DNA of 64,000 nucleotides, from assembly GCA_024643365.1 (NCBI GenBank), contig JAHENC010000025.1, positions 1 through 64,000 of the forward strand, given 5' to 3'. The translations under genes were made by a program, and so were the position numbers. Shown one piece after another: positions 2,958-64,000 of the stretch (positions within the stretch are counted from its first letter, which is position 1; each line of letters begins with the position of its first letter). The notes beneath the pieces were generated by a model. It was not told where the DNA came from. It worked only from the letters and a program-made list of their open reading frames with translations, and searched no databases. Source of the DNA: Crocinitomicaceae bacterium (GTDB lineage: Bacteria; Bacteroidota; Bacteroidia; Flavobacteriales_D; Crocinitomicaceae).

Positions 2958-3460
2958 TAAATGACATTACACAATCAACAATAGCAATTTACCTATAAAT
3001 TTGATTGTTTAGCTTTGATGTTATTTCCTAATGACAAAATGTAGAGGTTAATTACTGTAAATGATAGTATATATCATCATTTATAAGCCTCACGCGCGCG
3101 TAACTAGTATAGTATAATGAATGGTGTTTAAATTGCTTTCTTTTTTGAATGAAGAGTGCAGTAATCCCAAGCAAGTTTTAACACTTGAGATCACCACACT
3201 CTTAAGGCTCAAAAGTTTTGCTTCCTTCCCCGAATGTCTAAACTAGTCATTGGTGCTGTTTAGCCTGAGATTAACTTTCGAATAACCAACTATCCGGTAT
3301 GCATAGGACTCATCTCTTAGTGCCATCCTTGGGTTTTACATACATCCCACAGTAACCCTTGTAAGCTTTCCTTACCACATTAGCTGTTGTTAATACTTCC
3401 GACCTAATGATAAACAAAATTAATAATTGATTAATAAATAATCAAAATATTGACATTTTA
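2958..3460. other. 503-bp intergenic stretch of the island
   Basis: No gene of normal length. A 6-bp inverted repeat (3061-3066 with 3072-3077) follows the cargo operon. On the minus strand, 3310 to about 3410 reads as a coding-like tail ending in GYCGMYVKPKDGTKR and a stop, but it has no ATG. It may be the end of a decayed gene downstream of the recombinase. The rest shows nothing that I can name. Confidence 0.35.
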
Positions 3461-4669
3461 TTAATCATGAGTTTTCAACATGGTATCAACAACTCTCCGA
3501 TTCATCTCATCAATCACCGCATTGTCAAACTGCTCTAAATAGATTCCAGTTACACTATTGCCGTAAGAATGCCCTAAAGCTTCAGCGATGAGGTCTTTAG
3601 AGTAGCCTAGCTGTCTTGAAATGTTTGCATATGAATATCTGAATACATAGGTACTTAGTGCCTCCTTAGAATTGATCAAAATGCCTAATTTTCGGAGATG
3701 CGCATTGATGACTTTTCTTTTTTGGACAATCACTTCAACTAGATGAGGTCTATTCTTCAACTCGACATCACTTAAAACACCAATTAATGTATTACCGCTC
3801 TGCAATTTATTGATGACATCTTGAACCTCAGGAGTTAACGCAAGGCTGTATAGTTTACCTGTTTTGGAGCGCTTGTAGATGATTCTACCACCATTAATAT
3901 TATCTAATGATAGTAATAGTAAGTCCTTGATATTGATACCTCTAAGCATAAATATCAGTTTGCCAATCAACCATGAGCGATAAAGTGGATGAGTACTTTC
4001 TAACTCAAGATTGAAATAGGCTTTCATCTCTGTCATGGTAAAAACACGTGGTGTGGTCTTCTCTTTTCTGATTTTGTATTTCCTAAATGGATACCACTCC
4101 AAGCCCATAATGTCAAAATGTACCGCCTTGTTGCAGATTGCTCTAAATGACCTCATGTAAACACCAATACCGTTTGGACTCATTCCTCTTTTAAAAAGCT
4201 TACTCTCTAACTCTATTATTGATTTGTAGTCTAGCTTTGAAAATGGGATATTCAATACAATCTCTTTGGATATTACCGATAAACTGGTTTGATAAACCTT
4301 AGCGCCACCATGTCTATTGGCAGTTTTCAACTCTTCAATGTGTTGATTCCAGAAATCAATGATGGTAATCTCATTTTGAGGCGTGTCAATTAGAAATGAT
4401 TTAATCTGCTTCAGGTCGTTGCAGCCTAAATGCTCAGCTGTAAAAGTTCGTAGCCTCTTGAGGTAATAGGTTTTCAATTGCTCCAAGACGATATTACCTT
4501 CCATGTCATGCAATAAACAATTAGACTTGTTATCAAATTGTTCTTTAAGAATTTTAAAGCCTGTGCCAATGTCACAGAATTTGTCTTGGGTTCTTAATCT
4601 GAAAACTACTGGGTAAGTACCGTCTTTCCTTGCTCTTCTTGTGTCAAGGGTTAAATTTAATGTTGCCAT
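3461..4669 (-). CDS. Tyrosine recombinase (integrase) of the tRNA-Asn element
   Basis: 402 residues, full length for the Bacteroidota phage-integrase family with an N-terminal Arm-binding domain (1-90), a SAM-like core-binding domain (about 103-195) and a catalytic domain (about 205-395). Visible catalytic residues are Arg243 (MLRGINIKDL), Lys269 (SKTGK), Arg344 (YVFRYSYAN, where the usual HxxR histidine is replaced by Tyr341), His367 (ALGHS) and the nucleophile Tyr377 (GIYLEQF). It starts 173 bp from the 3' end of tRNA-Asn and should catalyse integration into that gene. The N-terminus resembles the decayed recombinase at 31440. All catalytic positions except the first His of box II are kept, so it may be active. 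Confidence 0.92.
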   Translation of the reverse strand: MATLNLTLDTRRARKDGTYPVVFRLRTQDKFCDIGTGFKILKEQFDNKSNCLLHDMEGNIVLEQLKTYYLKRLRTFTAEHLGCNDLKQIKSFLIDTPQNEITIIDFWNQHIEELKTANRHGGAKVYQTSLSVISKEIVLNIPFSKLDYKSIIELESKLFKRGMSPNGIGVYMRSFRAICNKAVHFDIMGLEWYPFRKYKIRKEKTTPRVFTMTEMKAYFNLELESTHPLYRSWLIGKLIFMLRGINIKDLLLLSLDNINGGRIIYKRSKTGKLYSLALTPEVQDVINKLQSGNTLIGVLSDVELKNRPHLVEVIVQKRKVINAHLRKLGILINSKEALSTYVFRYSYANISRQLGYSKDLIAEALGHSYGNSVTGIYLEQFDNAVIDEMNRRVVDTMLKTHD

Positions 4670-57188: not shown

Positions 57189-57917
57189 ATGGGACAATTT
57201 GATGACGCGAAAGAACTAGTAGGACATTGCAAGCCGACCTTTAACAAAATTGAGCAGGCTTACAAAGAATCATTGCACGACAGGGAAATTAAAAAAACTC
57301 TTCTGATTGAAATAAAAAATTTTATGGAGAATTTACGTTCTGCTTTGGACTTTACTGCCCACGGACTTTTCGACAAGTATGGTAACAGCACACCTTCAAA
57401 GCCAAGAATATATTTTCCATATGCTTGGGCTTCCTTAGACAAAGTACATTTTCAATCAAATAATATTATTGAAAAAAATCTTCCTGGAGTAACTGCGAAT
57501 AGACCTGATATTGCAACAAAAATTGAAAGCTACCAGCACTTTGAAAATGTTGCTAATAGTTGGTTGCCAAAGTTTATGGAGTTAAATAATGAAAACAAAC
57601 ACCAACAGTTAACTCCTCAAATAAGAAAAGAAACTAAACAATTAAATATATCTTCTGGAGGAGCTTCAATTTCACTCGGACAAGGAGCTTCAATTAGTTT
57701 AGGACATGGGACCTCGATTTCTTTTGGTGGACTCGTCATTCCGGGAGGACAGTCCTTCGATGCCAATAACCCTGCAAAGATCATCGGGCAAGGTAAACAA
57801 GAAGTCATTACTTGGGTATCTTTTCTTTTTTCAACAAATAATGAATTGGTTCTACCTCTATTGAAACAAGCTTTGGATGGGACAGAAAAAATAGTTAATG
57901 AATTATCAAACATTTAA
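57189..57917 (+). CDS. Unknown protein with Ser/Gly octapeptide repeats, partner of protease
   Basis: 242 residues, no family recognised and no signal or membrane segment. Residues 1-150 are mainly helical (IEIKNFMENLRSALDFTAHGLF resembles helical HEPN-like bundles but has no RxxxxH motif). Residues 158-181 are three octapeptide units, GASISLGQ, GASISLGH and GTSISFGG, which suggest a small beta-turn or beta-solenoid piece. The C-terminus is helical again. It is followed after 11 bp by a trypsin-like protease gene, so the two are most likely one operon. A sensor or substrate of the protease is a reasonable guess, but it is only a guess. Confidence 0.6.
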   Translation: MGQFDDAKELVGHCKPTFNKIEQAYKESLHDREIKKTLLIEIKNFMENLRSALDFTAHGLFDKYGNSTPSKPRIYFPYAWASLDKVHFQSNNIIEKNLPGVTANRPDIATKIESYQHFENVANSWLPKFMELNNENKHQQLTPQIRKETKQLNISSGGASISLGQGASISLGHGTSISFGGLVIPGGQSFDANNPAKIIGQGKQEVITWVSFLFSTNNELVLPLLKQALDGTEKIVNELSNI

Positions 57918-57928
57918 TAATAAACACA

Positions 57929-58621
57929 ATGTTCAGAAATGTAAATAAAACAGTTAGGGAATCAATTTATGGAGTGCTTTGTAAGTCAGCAGTTGGAAAC
58001 AATCAAATTGTTTGTGGGACAGGTACAGCTTTTATGATTGCTCCGGGTGTTTGTGCGACCGCTGCACACGTATTACATTTAGACGGAGATAAAACAAAGA
58101 CTTTACATCAGAGTATTGAATTAATTCGTGCTCCTGACATTGGAACACCAATGTTAGTTGCAACGCTTATTGTTGAAGACACAGAAAGAGATTTAGCTCT
58201 TATTAAAATAACAAATCCGACAAACAGCTCGGTAATTCCATTATATAAAACAAAAATAGATTCAGGCATAAATACTGGAGCTTTAGGCTTTCCACTTGCG
58301 CAAGTTTCTTTTGTAAATAATCAAATTGCATTTAATCTTCTGGAACGTTTTCAAGGAGCTTACATTTCTGCATATAACACTGCAGCTTATCCTCACGCTA
58401 ATCCCAATAATATAACGTTAGACACTTATGAAACGGACTCTTTGACTTATAGTGGTTCAAGTGGTTGTCCGGGCTTTACGGTTGAAGCAAAATGTTTCGG
58501 TATGGTTATCGGGTCTGTATCAGAAAATAATAAAGACAATTCCGCTCGACTAGCAATCTCTCTTTGGGTTCCATCAATGGACATTATAAACTTTGCAGCT
58601 GGAAATGGAATAAAAATATAA
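57929..58621 (+). CDS. Trypsin-like serine protease, no signal peptide
   Basis: 230 residues of the chymotrypsin-like fold with the full triad: His47 in CATAAHVLH, Asp88 in ERDLALIKI and Ser178 in YSGSSGCPGF. There is no export signal, so the enzyme probably acts in the cytoplasm, which is unusual for the DegP/HtrA type; no PDZ domain is attached. Small cytoplasmic trypsin-like proteases are effectors in several bacterial defence operons. It follows the 242-residue unknown protein by 11 bp and sits between HTH and AbiE genes in the accessory region. Confidence 0.82.
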   Translation: MFRNVNKTVRESIYGVLCKSAVGNNQIVCGTGTAFMIAPGVCATAAHVLHLDGDKTKTLHQSIELIRAPDIGTPMLVATLIVEDTERDLALIKITNPTNSSVIPLYKTKIDSGINTGALGFPLAQVSFVNNQIAFNLLERFQGAYISAYNTAAYPHANPNNITLDTYETDSLTYSGSSGCPGFTVEAKCFGMVIGSVSENNKDNSARLAISLWVPSMDIINFAAGNGIKI

Positions 58622-58801: not shown

Positions 58802-59383
58802 ATGGAACTACTCCGTCAACATATCAAGCAAGGTGAAGTATATCGCCGTTCTGACCTAGAATATTATTCCACGGCCATAGATCGGCATTTAGCGTCGCTC
58901 ACTAAAGATGGAACATTGGAGAAATTGAACCAGGGCTTGTATTACGCACCAAAGCAATCTAAATTTGGGGCTGTTCCACCGGATGATCGCCAAGTAGTAG
59001 AACGTTTTCTGAAGGACGACGATTTTCTTTTGGTTTCCCCAAATACATTTAATTCATTAGGGCTTGGACTTACACAGCTTTATAATACAACATGGGTTTA
59101 CAACCATAAGCGTAAAGGCGAGTTTCAACTGAATGGAAAAACCTTTGAGTTCAAACTAAAATCCGCTTTCCCTAAACATATCTACAGGGAATATTTACTC
59201 GTTGATTTATTAAATAATTTAGATAACCTAGCGGAAGACCAAATCCATGCTGTATATAAATTGCCATCAAATGTACGCAATTTCGATACAGATGTGTTGA
59301 TGAAGGCTACTCAACAATATGGAACAGGCAAAACAAAGCGAACTTTAAAATCCATCGTTAGAAACGTACTACAACATGCTTGA
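58802..59383 (+). CDS. AbiEi-type antitoxin (DUF6088-like)
   Basis: 193 residues. The N-terminal winged helix (LLRQHIKQGEVYRRSDLEYY) is followed by the AbiEi body with EKLNQGLYYAPKQSKFGAVPPDD and LVSPNTFNSLGLGLTQLYNTTWV. This matches the DUF6088 / AbiEi antitoxin family. In the type IV AbiE system the antitoxin represses its own promoter and counters the toxin without direct binding. It overlaps the toxin gene by 8 nt. Confidence 0.85.
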   Translation: MELLRQHIKQGEVYRRSDLEYYSTAIDRHLASLTKDGTLEKLNQGLYYAPKQSKFGAVPPDDRQVVERFLKDDDFLLVSPNTFNSLGLGLTQLYNTTWVYNHKRKGEFQLNGKTFEFKLKSAFPKHIYREYLLVDLLNNLDNLAEDQIHAVYKLPSNVRNFDTDVLMKATQQYGTGKTKRTLKSIVRNVLQHA

Positions 59384-60329
59384 TTTTATTCATAACGACC
59401 CGGAATTCAAGGAACTTCTCTCCATCGTATCCTCCAAAAAAGGAATTGATATTACATTAATTGAGAAGGACTATTGGATCATGCATGCGTTGTTTTCCTT
59501 ACAACAACAGGGAATTGAGTTTGAATTGAAAGGAGGCACTTCGTTATCGAAAGGATTTGGCTTAATTCATCGCTTTTCAGAGGACATTGACATTCACATA
59601 CGAACCAATTTTGGTTTAGAAATCGAAGGAAAAGAAGATAAACCCAAAGTAAGAGCGGCACGCAAAGAATTTTATGATGTGCTCGCCAAATCACTTTCAA
59701 TTAATGGAATTATTGAAATTAAGCGAGATCATGATTTTGATGACCCCGAAAAATACCGCAGCGGGGGAATTCGCTTGTATTATCAAAGTTACACACCAAC
59801 ACTTGAAGGACTTAAAGATGGTATTTTACTCGAGGCTGGTTTTGACACCATAACACCCAATCAGCCCATCGATATTTCATCCTGGATTTGGGAACACCTT
59901 GTTTCAATAAATGCAAGCAGTAATTACATCAACAACACAGCCATTGGCGTTCAATGTTATCACCCAGGATATACGTTGATTGAAAAACTGCAAACGATCA
60001 TCAGGAAATATCGTAACAAAGACAATCCTGGTGCTTCTGATGATAAAAACTTTATGCGCCAATACTATGATGTATATTGTTTATTGGGTGATTCTGACAT
60101 TCAATCATTCATAGGCAGTTCTGAGTACTTAGCACACAAAGCGGTAAGAATAAAAGGAGCTGACAAGCAAATACCACTACAAGAACATCCGGCCCTGTTA
60201 TTAACAGAAACTGAATTTCGAGAATCATTCAAATCTCGTTATCAATCCACTTCAAAGCTATATTACAACGGTCAGCCTGATTTTGAAGAGGTGCTAGCCA
60301 GAATAGACATGTTCTTGCCTATACTTTGA
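59376..60329 (+). CDS. AbiEii/AbiGii-type nucleotidyltransferase toxin
   Basis: 317 residues. The nucleotidyltransferase site is clear: GGTSLSKGFG at 53-61 and the acidic pair Asp70 and Asp72 in FSEDIDIHI. It matches the AbiEii/AbiGii toxin family. Related toxins transfer nucleotides to tRNA acceptor stems and stop translation, causing abortive infection against phage. Start overlaps the antitoxin end by 8 nt, so both are made together. Confidence 0.92.
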   Translation: MLDFIHNDPEFKELLSIVSSKKGIDITLIEKDYWIMHALFSLQQQGIEFELKGGTSLSKGFGLIHRFSEDIDIHIRTNFGLEIEGKEDKPKVRAARKEFYDVLAKSLSINGIIEIKRDHDFDDPEKYRSGGIRLYYQSYTPTLEGLKDGILLEAGFDTITPNQPIDISSWIWEHLVSINASSNYINNTAIGVQCYHPGYTLIEKLQTIIRKYRNKDNPGASDDKNFMRQYYDVYCLLGDSDIQSFIGSSEYLAHKAVRIKGADKQIPLQEHPALLLTETEFRESFKSRYQSTSKLYYNGQPDFEEVLARIDMFLPIL

Positions 60330-60749: not shown

Positions 60750-60944
60750 ATGAAAGAACTAAGAGATTGGATAGCAGAATTTAAGACTGAAAATGCTGAA
60801 CTAAATGGCTTTGTTGCAAAACTAGAAGGATTCATTTCTGATGCTGGTTTTAACATGTCAAAATTCGAGAATGCTGTTAATCAAGGTCTGAAAAATAAGG
60901 AAGAAGAAATTAGAAAAACTTTTACTGAAGATATTGAAAATTAA
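60750..60944 (+). CDS. Small coiled-coil protein, partner of ATPase
   Basis: 64 residues from the ATG at 60750 (MKELRDWIAEFKTENAELNG). The sequence is acidic and almost all helical with heptad-like spacing (ENAELNGFVAKLEGFI, KNKEEEIRKTF). No family is known to me. Its end overlaps the ATPase gene by 11 nt in the next frame, and that gene has no ATG, so translation of the ATPase probably depends on this gene. It may be a small subunit that plugs or regulates the ATPase, comparable to short partners of other two-gene defence systems, but this is inference. Confidence 0.6.
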   Translation: MKELRDWIAEFKTENAELNGFVAKLEGFISDAGFNMSKFENAVNQGLKNKEEEIRKTFTEDIEN

Positions 60945-63360
60945 GAAAATTACTGTTGAAAATTTCAGGGGACTTCGGTTGCCTGTTTCTATTGATTTTG
61001 TCAAAAATAATAAGACGACCTCTGCGTTGATTTATGGCAGAAACGGAACAGGTAAAAGTTCAATGGTAGATGCTTGGGAATGGCTTCATAATTTCTATAT
61101 TGAAAATTTAAGCCGAGAAGGTGTATTATTAACTGATTTACCACACAAAGCATCGGGTGGAATTAACAGCTACATTTCAGTTGACTTCCAACACACTTCA
61201 ATAAATAATGCAACCGCTACATTCAATCCCAGGAAAATAACCACGCCAACTACGACAGGAGAATACAATGAATTCAGAGCATTAAGTACTTACCCAAATT
61301 ACTTGCGATACACAGACCTAAATGATTTTATTTGTAAAAAGCGTAAAGCTGCGAGATACGAATACATTGCAAAATATTTTGGGCTTGAAAAATTTTCATT
61401 GCTTCAAGATACATTACAATCAAGTCTTAATAAGCAATCAATTAATTTACAAAAACTTAAAACAGATTTTGAAACAAGTAACAATGCAATAAATATGATT
61501 ACAGGATTGACAACGGTTGATGAAACTACTGCTGTTAAATTCATCAACACGATTGCAGCAAAACATAAAATAACGATCATCACAAGTTTCAATCAAGCAG
61601 AAAAAGTCAAGACTGCTCTACAAAAAATCGTTCAGAAAAATCCGGTTACAAAAGAACTTACTGAGTGGAAAGCGTTTCAATTAAGACAAAACCAATTTTA
61701 TCCAATCACAACTGCAAAAGCAAATTGCGGAGCACTTGAAGAATTATTTACTGACTTGAAGCAGAATGAGGAAAATATAAAACAACTTATTCTATCGTCT
61801 CTTTACGAACAAAGCATTGAGGTAATTACCAAACTGGAAGAGAAAACCATGTGTCCAGTTTGCGATGAAACTTTTGATGGTGATTTGTTGCAGCATATTA
61901 CAGATAAACACAATTCTTTGGCAGCACTGAATAAAAGGAAAATTGAATTTGAATCAAAAAAAACATTATTAGAAAAACAGTTCGAAGGAATTTCAAGAAA
62001 AATAGCCGCTATTGAAGCTGAGAGTAGTTCTGTTATATTGTCGGTATTTCAAACTTTCTTTAATGATTTATCAACAATCACTTCATCGCTGCCAACTTTA
62101 ATTACAACGCTTAAAATACCGCTTAAAGATTTAGCAACACTATTAATCAGTAATGAAACAGCAATTGCAAAAATAGAAACCATAATTTCCGATGAAGTAG
62201 CGAGTAAAAAGCTCGTTGCTGATAAAATTGCAGTTTTGTCAAGAGATGAAACTACAAAAACTTTAGCACAGGATTACACAAACCTTTCAAACATTATTGA
62301 CAATTTCAAAAGTCATTCAATCAATAAGGCGAAAGTGACATATTTGGAAGACATCACAGATAATCTTCAAACGTTTTTCAATTCCCTTACTACATACATT
62401 CAGACAGAAATTCAAAATACTTTCACTGTTATTTCCGCTGATGTAGTTGATTACTTTAATGTTCTAGAAAACTCAAATCCTGACATTAAAAATCCTGCAT
62501 TAAAACTTATTACAGGGAAAGATAAAGCTGTTGAATTAGAGATTGAATTTGCTTCTGAGAAAATTACACCTGCGTTTAAATTTCTGAGTGAAAGTCAAGT
62601 AAATAGTTTTGGTCTGGCCTTCTTTCTAGCAGCAGTAAAACGTTTCAACAAAGATTTCAAGTTTTTTATTTTAGACGATGTTGTAAATAGTTTTGATAGT
62701 TTTAAAAGACCAAGAGTCGCAAAGTTAATTGCTTCCAAATTCAGTGAATTTCAAGTTTTAATGATTACCCACGACCAAATTTTCTTTGATACTGTGCAAA
62801 GAAAATTTCCTGAATGGCAACGATATAAATTCACATCTTGGGATTATTCAACTGGACCTAAATTTAAACCGTCAAAAAACTATTTGGAAGAAATTAAAGC
62901 ATATCTAGAAGAGGATAATCCTATAACTGCTGGTCAAACGTTAGGTAAATATTTGGAATGGATTTTTGGCATTCTTTGTCAGAATATGGAAACGCCAATT
63001 CCTTACAGGGTAGAAAATGTTTATACTCTTTCAGACTACTACAATCCACTTGCAAAAAGATTTAGAGATAAAATCAAACTCCCCAATAAACAAAACAACC
63101 TTTTTGAATTACTTGATGAATTTGAAACTGGAACAATATTCAGAAACTATTGTGTGCACTGGAAAAATGAAGCGACTCAGTTCACTTCAGAGGAGATTGA
63201 GGCAATTTTTAAAAAGTGGATTGAAATTGAAGAAGTCATATTTTGCACCTCGTGTAAGTCATTTGTTCATTATCAAAATATTAGCAAAACAAACTATGTT
63301 AGGTGTGAATGTGGAACAGTAAACTTACTCGACGAAAAACATTTTAATAATGCCAAATAA
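60934..63360 (+). CDS. SMC-like AAA ATPase with zinc motif, HEPN-type motif and zinc ribbon
   Basis: 808 residues. ATPase half 1: Walker A GRNGTGKS at 35-42. A long coiled coil (about 160-500) carries CPVC (307-310) followed by His321 and His326, i.e. a zinc hook or C2H2 unit at its tip. ATPase half 2: signature-like LSESQ (551-555), Walker B FFILDDVVNSFDS (Asp581-Asp582) and the switch MITHDQ. The tail holds RNYCVH (737-742), which matches the R-x4-H nuclease motif of HEPN domains, and a zinc ribbon CTSC (771-774)...CEC (791-793). The layout resembles RloC/PrrC-type anticodon nucleases, in which a HEPN RNase is controlled by an SMC-like ATPase. Start codon is a TTG in an overlap with the upstream gene; see findings. 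Confidence 0.85.
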   Translation: MKIKKITVENFRGLRLPVSIDFVKNNKTTSALIYGRNGTGKSSMVDAWEWLHNFYIENLSREGVLLTDLPHKASGGINSYISVDFQHTSINNATATFNPRKITTPTTTGEYNEFRALSTYPNYLRYTDLNDFICKKRKAARYEYIAKYFGLEKFSLLQDTLQSSLNKQSINLQKLKTDFETSNNAINMITGLTTVDETTAVKFINTIAAKHKITIITSFNQAEKVKTALQKIVQKNPVTKELTEWKAFQLRQNQFYPITTAKANCGALEELFTDLKQNEENIKQLILSSLYEQSIEVITKLEEKTMCPVCDETFDGDLLQHITDKHNSLAALNKRKIEFESKKTLLEKQFEGISRKIAAIEAESSSVILSVFQTFFNDLSTITSSLPTLITTLKIPLKDLATLLISNETAIAKIETIISDEVASKKLVADKIAVLSRDETTKTLAQDYTNLSNIIDNFKSHSINKAKVTYLEDITDNLQTFFNSLTTYIQTEIQNTFTVISADVVDYFNVLENSNPDIKNPALKLITGKDKAVELEIEFASEKITPAFKFLSESQVNSFGLAFFLAAVKRFNKDFKFFILDDVVNSFDSFKRPRVAKLIASKFSEFQVLMITHDQIFFDTVQRKFPEWQRYKFTSWDYSTGPKFKPSKNYLEEIKAYLEEDNPITAGQTLGKYLEWIFGILCQNMETPIPYRVENVYTLSDYYNPLAKRFRDKIKLPNKQNNLFELLDEFETGTIFRNYCVHWKNEATQFTSEEIEAIFKKWIEIEEVIFCTSCKSFVHYQNISKTNYVRCECGTVNLLDEKHFNNAK

Positions 63361-63605
63361 ATGGAGACAAAACTTTATGCGCAGAGAAGAACAGCCTGTA
63401 ACAGCGGCTACAAGAAATTTGTGATTCAGAGGTTAAATGAGGTTCTGTGCTTCTATTCAAGTTCAGCACAGTTTAACAATTTTACACTCCAAAACCCGCG
63501 CGAACGCCAAGGATCAAAGCCTTACAAGTTAACTCTTAAACACTTAGAATGTTGATCACCAATTAAAAACAAAAGAAAACTAAATGAAATAAATACAAAG
63601 ATTCT
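63361..63605. other. Intergenic stretch after the ATPase
   Basis: No recognised gene. A 64-codon open frame at 63361-63555 has no family and unlikely composition. GCCTGTAAC at 63394-63402, followed by a GC-richer piece near 63495-63510, resembles short elements I have seen at the ends of accessory genes in Bacteroidota, but I cannot name it. Confidence 0.3.
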
Positions 63606-63928
63606 GGGGGCAGAGGGTCGAAATGATACGTTTTGCAAAATGGTACCACGTCTAGGATATACGCTAGCTGGGAAGGACAATACCAATTTCCAAATTTTCC
63701 TGCAAAGGAATTAATGAGGAATGAGTTATCAACAGACAAAGAACTGTTGATGCCCTGAAATTGGTCCTGTGGATGGATTTTCTAAGCATATTTATTGTGG
63801 TTATGAATTTACAGACTAAGGTAACAATTTCTATACCTGAGATGAGTAGCGTTGCCTCCCTCAAAAGAGGATTAAAGCTTCGAATGAGCATGTGCATTTT
63901 TAACCTGCTACTAATAGTATCTGCCCCC
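63606..63928 (+). ncRNA. Putative structured RNA before a reverse-transcriptase-like ORF
   Basis: Nested helices in about 320 nt: outer 9-bp GGGGGCAGA (63606-63614) with TCTGCCCCC (63920-63928); inner ACCAATTT (63682-63689) with AAATTGGT (63758-63765); hairpin ATCAACAG (63728-63735) with CTGTTGAT (63744-63751); AGTAGC (63845-63850) with GCTACT (63907-63912); tetraloop CCTC-AAAA-GAGG (63859-63870). All arms are perfect. An outer helix that closes the region and ends 20 nt before an ORF is the layout of retron msr-msd and of DRT2-type templates. No protein gene explains this stretch. Structure is from reading by eye; no folding energy was computed. Confidence 0.5.
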
Positions 63929-63948
63929 TCTTTTTAAACTTGATTAAA

Positions 63949-64000
63949 ATGGAATTAGAAACCTGGTTTAAAACAAAAAAGTATCCTCATATCGGTTTAC
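63949..64000 (+). CDS. Partial ORF, putative reverse transcriptase (N-terminus only)
   Basis: Seventeen residues are visible from the ATG at 63949 before the window ends: MELETWFKTKKYPHIGL. The string WF-x3-KYPHIGL resembles the first residues of bacterial defence reverse transcriptases that begin with a YPHIGLP- or YLHFGLP-like motif (recalled, not searched). The structured stretch directly upstream and the AbiE and ATPase neighbours make a retron- or DRT-type defence RT the best guess. The seven conserved RT blocks and the YxDD box are outside the window, so the call cannot be confirmed here. Confidence 0.4.
   Translation, partial: MELETWFKTKKYPHIGL

Follow-up and report, generated by a model that had tools for sequence, protein, structure and literature searches.

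The stretch of DNA that we analyzed (the window; 64,000 nucleotides) comes from the start of contig 7 (86,393 bases) of the 2.53-Mb genome of a Crocinitomicaceae bacterium. At the end of the window lie a structured RNA and the start of a gene for a divergent reverse transcriptase (RT) of the DRT2 family. A sequence-only reading, to which just 17 residues of the enzyme were visible, had proposed an RT-family defence enzyme, and the rest of the contig bears this out: the open reading frame (ORF), which begins MELETWFKTKKYPHIGL with its ATG at 63949, is intact past the end of the window and encodes 519 amino acids. The gene and the RNA are made up as follows.

63949..64000, plus strand: start of the DRT2 RT gene, which runs on to contig position 65508 (L002 6949-8508, 519 aa).
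63604..63936, plus strand: DRT2 non-coding RNA; the extent is approximate, starting at the closing helix and ending with the U run 3' of it; kept upstream of the RT gene in relatives; fold z of -2.7.
63606..63614, plus strand: 5' arm of the closing helix, GGGGGCAGA; 9 bp; covariation at 9/9 pairs, with six distinct helix sequences.
63920..63928, plus strand: 3' arm of the closing helix, UCUGCCCCC, followed by UCUUUUU; same covariation test.
63627..63634, plus strand: conserved 5' element, UACGUUUU; alignments of the wider Bacteroidota clade show hardly any variation in its core, ACGUUU, within the 5' part of the RNA.
63646..63671, plus strand: hairpin 5' of the template (CCA..CUAG / CUAG.UGG); the consensus fold has two-sided changes at 4/7 pairs.

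The full-length ORF contains the RT palm motifs GIPQGSPIS and, after it, RYSDDLIIV with the catalytic YSDD, which are the RT blocks and the YxDD motif that the sequence-only reading had named as a check. Among the PADLOC profiles, the best match is Drt2 (E = 1.5e-138), and the next family is at 1e-23; no UG28 model is among the 25 best PADLOC matches listed. The NCBIfam model for Drt2 gives 339.5 bits, which is under its equivalog cut-off of 390, so we consider this RT to be a divergent member of Drt2. When we compared its sequence to those of solved structures, the chains of the DRT2 system from Klebsiella pneumoniae (KpDRT2) were best, with E of about 2.5e-52. The structure agrees: with the AlphaFold model (mean predicted local distance difference test, or pLDDT, of 88) as the query, Foldseek ranks 9c0i, the KpDRT2 cryo-EM chain, first (E = 7e-37) and DRT9 next (5e-12), while group II and retron RTs match far more poorly. 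Pfam reports RVT_1 alone, and the model is one RT-like fold over all 519 amino acids, without an effector domain. The window RT is a DRT2-family enzyme, and a divergent one; by both profile and fold scores, the leaning of the sequence-only reading towards DRT2, made on the length of the template, was correct, and the system is not a retron.

The RT from Belliella pelovolcani is 82% identical to the window RT, yet a search of 36 other genomes from the same genus as the window found no match. This sporadic pattern suggests that the locus has spread horizontally. We found no relative of the locus in the viral contigs that we searched.

The same RNA is found upstream of the RT in related loci, as seen in alignments. 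The 9-bp outer helix that had been noticed from the sequence is real, with 20 nt between the end of its 3' arm and the ATG. On its own, this helix is moderately unusual: a Watson-Crick helix of at least 9 bp that spans at least 250 nt arose in 5 of 300 dinucleotide shuffles. Folding of the whole region and covariation in homologues, two further checks that had been named, also came out in favor of structure. The region folds with z = -2.7, and 1 of 100 shuffles was as stable. In the related loci, 98% of the cells of the closing helix are paired and all 9 pairs show two-sided change, which none of 500 shuffles reaches. The covariation count is from six rows (distinct helix sequences) whose arms were found and put in register by hand, so it leans towards the helix; we compared the arms by hand because our MAFFT alignment (A2) misregisters the helix in L006-L010. 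The compensating changes are plain in the sequences themselves: GGGGGCAGA/UCUGCCCCC in the window, GGGCCAGA/UCUGGCCC in L004, AGGGUCGAG/CUCGACCCU in L006-L010, and GUGGGCAGC/GCUGCCCAC, GGAUAGGGC/GCCCUAUCC, and AAGAGAAGG/CCUUCUCUU in the sister clades. Across relatives, the closing helix is not due to chance.

The hairpin at 63646-63671 is perhaps the equivalent of the 5' handle of KpDRT2. It and the closing helix are the structural elements that we assessed; other traits by which DRT2 systems are recognized are a 3' pseudoknot, priming at the 3' end from a primer-binding site in the template, and, upon infection, concatemeric cDNA, toxicity of Neo, and abortive infection. We looked by eye around the downstream template boundary (ATACC-2, below) for a stem equivalent to SL2 of KpDRT2 and did not establish one, and a search of the region against Rfam found no family near its cut-off. 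As a separate observation, UACGUUU near the 5' end of the RNA (63627-63634 in the window, and the equivalent positions elsewhere) is almost invariant across clades whose templates are wholly dissimilar.

The template of KpDRT2 is bounded by two ACA motifs (ACA-1 and ACA-2), the length of the antisense unit is a multiple of three and the unit is stop-free through the junction between units, and the promoter is formed at the junction (PMC12039810). The window RNA has a candidate for the same arrangement.

63680..63684, plus strand: ATACC-1, the 5' copy of a direct repeat; predicted jump donor site; the sole repeat pair common to all 10 loci of the clade.
63833..63837, plus strand: ATACC-2, the 3' copy; predicted re-annealing site; from the same 10-locus scan.
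63680..63832, plus strand: predicted template, 153 nt; in 10/10 loci, divisible by three in length and open in the antisense frame.
63680..63832, minus strand: predicted unit of the toxin gene neo, 51 codons, EIVTLVCKFITTINMLRKSIHRTNFRASTVLCLLITHSSLIPLQENLEIGI; reads endlessly once units are joined.

ATACC was first spotted by eye, and all column pairs of the clade alignments were then tested without promoter information. We used only clade-wide scans because free scans of single sequences for promoters plus repeats yielded too many chance pairs. Of the 28,209 column pairs, ATACC/ATACC and the pair shifted from it by one base were the only ones to share a 4-mer in nine or more of the ten loci. 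The resulting templates are 153, 153, 153, 153, 156, 156, 144, 144, 144, and 150 nt long, all multiples of three, and all ten loci share an antisense frame that stays free of stops across the repeat junction. There is no common open frame on the sense strand over these ten loci. L054, which joined the ten only once the rule had been stated, fits it. The templates of this clade differ by about 205 substitutions, none of which creates a stop; if the frame were unconstrained, the chance of this would be about 4e-5. Two sister clades have one passing repeat pair each: TTTC, with units of 129 nt (five loci) and 141 nt, and ATTTC, with units of 114, 114, and 108 nt.

As a control, we examined the DRT2 system on plasmid pPHDD1 of Photobacterium damselae (L050), which stood in for the nucleotide sequence of KpDRT2 (53% identical over the part of the RT compared). 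No open template bounded by ACA was found there; an AGAT repeat works, and gives a 111-nt unit with an open antisense frame, as in the Bacteroidota loci. Sigma70-like boxes placed the search, so this is a check of the anatomy and not a blind test. L050 is far off in the RT tree, and unlike the window it has gammaproteobacterial signals (TTGACA-N17-TATAAT, GGAG, and ATG).

Housekeeping promoters in Bacteroidota have the form TTTG/TAnnTTTG (PMC6847099; PMC9723704). The minus strand of the predicted template holds candidate boxes of this form, in an order that would make a promoter only once units are joined.

63816..63823, minus strand: -7 box of the junction promoter, TACCTTAG; one mismatch to the consensus TAnnTTTG.
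63691..63694, minus strand: -33 box of the junction promoter, TTTG; 20 nt from the -7 box only in joined units.
63787..63789, minus strand: first in-frame neo ATG after the junction promoter; no Shine-Dalgarno sequence, A at -3.

In 14 of the 19 units, the junction is bridged by a perfect match to NTTG-N19/20-TANNTTTR, with no other such site on the circle; the same is seen in 0 to 1% of shuffled units. (The letters N and R of this pattern were relaxed after the units had been inspected.) The strict form, TTTG-N20-TATCTTTG, is present in L004, L005, L009, L011, L054, and L059. In L006-L008, the junction has TTGACA-N17-TATATT, which can also be read as TAnnTTGY; the likeness was noted after the fact. 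In Flavobacterium psychrophilum, a TAnnTTGY box is assigned to a different sigma factor (PMC9723704). Each of 21 units has an in-frame ATG 28-55 nt into the unit, and 20 of the 21 lack a Shine-Dalgarno sequence; start codons of this kind are expected in Bacteroidota (PMC6847099). We predict from these sequences that the central part of the RNA, once copied repeatedly into DNA by the RT, encodes an endless toxin gene together with its promoter, neither of which the genome has in that form.

Our reading, to which we give a probability of roughly 85%, is that the locus is a divergent Bacteroidota DRT2 that builds a neo toxin gene by rolling-circle reverse transcription and expresses it from signals specific to the phylum. 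The RT identity, the conservation of the RNA and its closing helix, the template bounds, the lengths, the open frame, and the junction promoter in relatives were computed here; for RNA binding, jumping, second-strand synthesis, transcription, toxicity, and defence, our model is the K. pneumoniae system. The RT would bind the RNA of roughly 330 nt that is encoded just upstream of its gene and, upon phage infection, copy the 153-nt template between the two ATACC repeats. Once the 5' repeat has been copied, the end of the nascent cDNA would re-pair with the 3' repeat and synthesis would restart, which would produce tandem repeats. After second-strand synthesis, each junction would form a promoter (TTTG-N20-TAnnTTTG, of the Bacteroidota sigma-A type) on the strand opposite to the RNA. 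Transcription from the junction would give an mRNA with one frame free of stops in every repeat, and translation from the ATG without a Shine-Dalgarno sequence would yield a repetitive, fairly hydrophobic Neo protein. Neo would then arrest the growth of the cell before the phage spreads.

Several observations weigh against this reading. The promoter in the window itself, TTTG-N20-TACCTTAG, has one mismatch (P = 0.05), which is the weakest point for the local copy, and L006-L008 and L010 have no sigma-A box. The residues of Neo show no clear purifying selection (ratios of nonsynonymous to synonymous change, or pN/pS, of 0.92 and 0.74); in the published DRT2 family too, the template is the least conserved part of the RNA. 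The window and the relatives nearest to it also have a CAATTTC repeat, from which a 141-nt unit would follow that is just as open; the promoter would be unchanged and the protein mostly so, though this pair is not common to the whole clade. The exact jump point within the repeat is uncertain, and the choice leaves the unit unchanged. Also, the ten loci are kin and hence not ten independent tests, L063 gave no in-frame unit with the motif that was tried, and other clades gave no unique template solution.

The lack of clear purifying selection would also fit a DRT2-clade RT whose cDNA acts as DNA, as with the poly-dA of DRT9 or the repeats of DRT10, so that there is no Neo and the open antisense frame is incidental. 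Tang et al. weighed alternative mechanisms for divergent DRT2 clades (PMC11100668). We consider this unlikely here: unit lengths that are multiples of three, with the same open antisense frame, recur in three clades that differ in both length and sequence, the predicted promoter lies exactly across the junction, and the template has no poly-U. Less likely still is that the system is partly decayed in this genome, with RT and RNA intact and a junction promoter too weak to express neo. The window does have TACCTTAG in place of TATCTTTG, and the RT of one relative (L009) is split by a frameshift; against decay, the window's RT ORF and its YSDD are intact, the closing helix is perfect, and the neo frame is open.

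Two other explanations have very little probability. The structured RNA directly upstream of an RT gene would suit a retron, with msr and msd parts in the RNA and an RT that makes msDNA, but the family assignment of the RT refutes this: retron RT models score 48 bits versus 461 for Drt2 in PADLOC and 57 versus 340 in NCBIfam, and the fold matches KpDRT2 first and retrons far lower. The antisense frame might instead be an ordinary small gene on the minus strand, unconnected with reverse transcription, given that the window does contain a 77-aa ORF (63664-63897) and near relatives contain similar ORFs. We find this scarcely credible: the genomic order of the promoter elements is wrong, and they would make a promoter only where two units meet; it is the length between the repeats that stays a multiple of three, and the frame is flanked by elements of RNA structure.

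Among the known systems closest to that of the window is KpDRT2 (UG2; PDB 9c0i; PMC12039810, PMC11100668). Both have an RNA directly upstream of a single RT gene with the same RT fold, short direct repeats that bound the template, and an antisense unit that is a multiple of three and open across the junction; a promoter at the junction only, as in KpDRT2, is predicted for the window system. The differences are in size and signals. The window RT has 519 amino acids instead of 425, is about 30% identical, and falls below the NCBIfam cut-off for Drt2; the RNA is about 330 nt instead of 280 and the template 153 nt instead of 120; the repeat is ATACC instead of ACA; and a Bacteroidota-type box without a Shine-Dalgarno sequence replaces TTGACA/TATAAT. 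The suggestion of a new subtype is reasonable in a restricted way: the sizes of the RNA, template, and RT, the jump repeat, and the promoter type all differ, while the architecture and the likely mechanism are those of DRT2.

DRT9 (UG28) copies a poly-U tract into poly-dA, and does so as an RT hexamer. Like the window system, it has a Class 2 RT with an upstream templating RNA, but the window template has no long U tract and the fold match is much weaker (5e-12). Retrons share a structured RNA beside the RT and a role, predicted here, in phage defence; their RTs belong to another family, and retron models score far under Drt2 for the window RT.

No accessory gene is conserved at related DRT2 loci: the type IV toxin-antitoxin pair and the ATPase that lie near the RNA in the window (below) are not common to them. 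L004, L005, L009, L011, and L012 have only the RNA-RT region in common. L006, L007, L008, and L010 share flanking genes with one another and not with the window; there, the RNA-RT pair lies inside one conserved, same-orientation, operon-like gene set, which by its arrangement looks like type I restriction-modification genes. In L009, which is from a metagenome-assembled genome of a close relative, the frameshift splits the RT into two overlapping ORFs (2992-4520), and the RNA and neo unit look intact.

The following genes were also observed near the RT.

57189-58621: a 242-aa protein of no known family and, 11 nt on, a trypsin-like protease (230 aa) with weak matches to the protease parts of the defence proteins RT-Protease_XI, LmuA, and Avs1b; possibly a two-gene defence unit.
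58802-60329: an AbiEi/AbiEii type IV toxin-antitoxin pair, consistent with a defence island.
60934-63360: an 808-aa SMC/RecF-like ATPase (TTG start as called), directly upstream of the DRT2 RNA; its N-terminus resembles LmuB (E = 1.5e-19), and towards the C-terminus it has a CxxC...CxC motif.
L002 8657-8971: an ORF of 104 aa, without a known family, that follows closely on the RT and is not conserved at other DRT2 loci; beyond it are a 201-aa membrane-like protein and then histidine kinase- and response regulator-like genes.

Since the effector genes of DRT2 come into being only through reverse transcription, genome annotation cannot see them. In their 2024 preprint, Tang et al. reported difficulty in annotating Neo in divergent clades and suggested that these may use other mechanisms (PMC11100668). 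The neo mechanism itself has been known since 2024; in the papers that we examined, we did not find it extended to these clades of Bacteroidota, whose jump repeats are different and whose promoters are specific to the phylum. Here, a simple rule (a short direct repeat, a length that is a multiple of three, and a common open antisense frame) yields explicit neo units in three Bacteroidota clades. A separate line of evidence is the promoter signal at the junction, which is written in the code of the host phylum. Together, these results suggest that the neo mechanism of DRT2 reaches well beyond the relatives of KpDRT2, and the predicted units now give exact sequences for testing. These Bacteroidota loci may fail in Escherichia coli, which matters for screens done there. 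We lean towards the view that Bacteroidota DRT2 systems still make neo, with a jump repeat and a junction promoter that have been recast to suit the phylum of the host: boxes of the TTTG/TAnnTTTG type, a start codon without a Shine-Dalgarno sequence, and, in L006-L008, a TAnnTTGY that resembles a flavobacterial alternative-sigma box. If this is true, then the hidden gene would be tuned to the RNA polymerase and the ribosome of its host.
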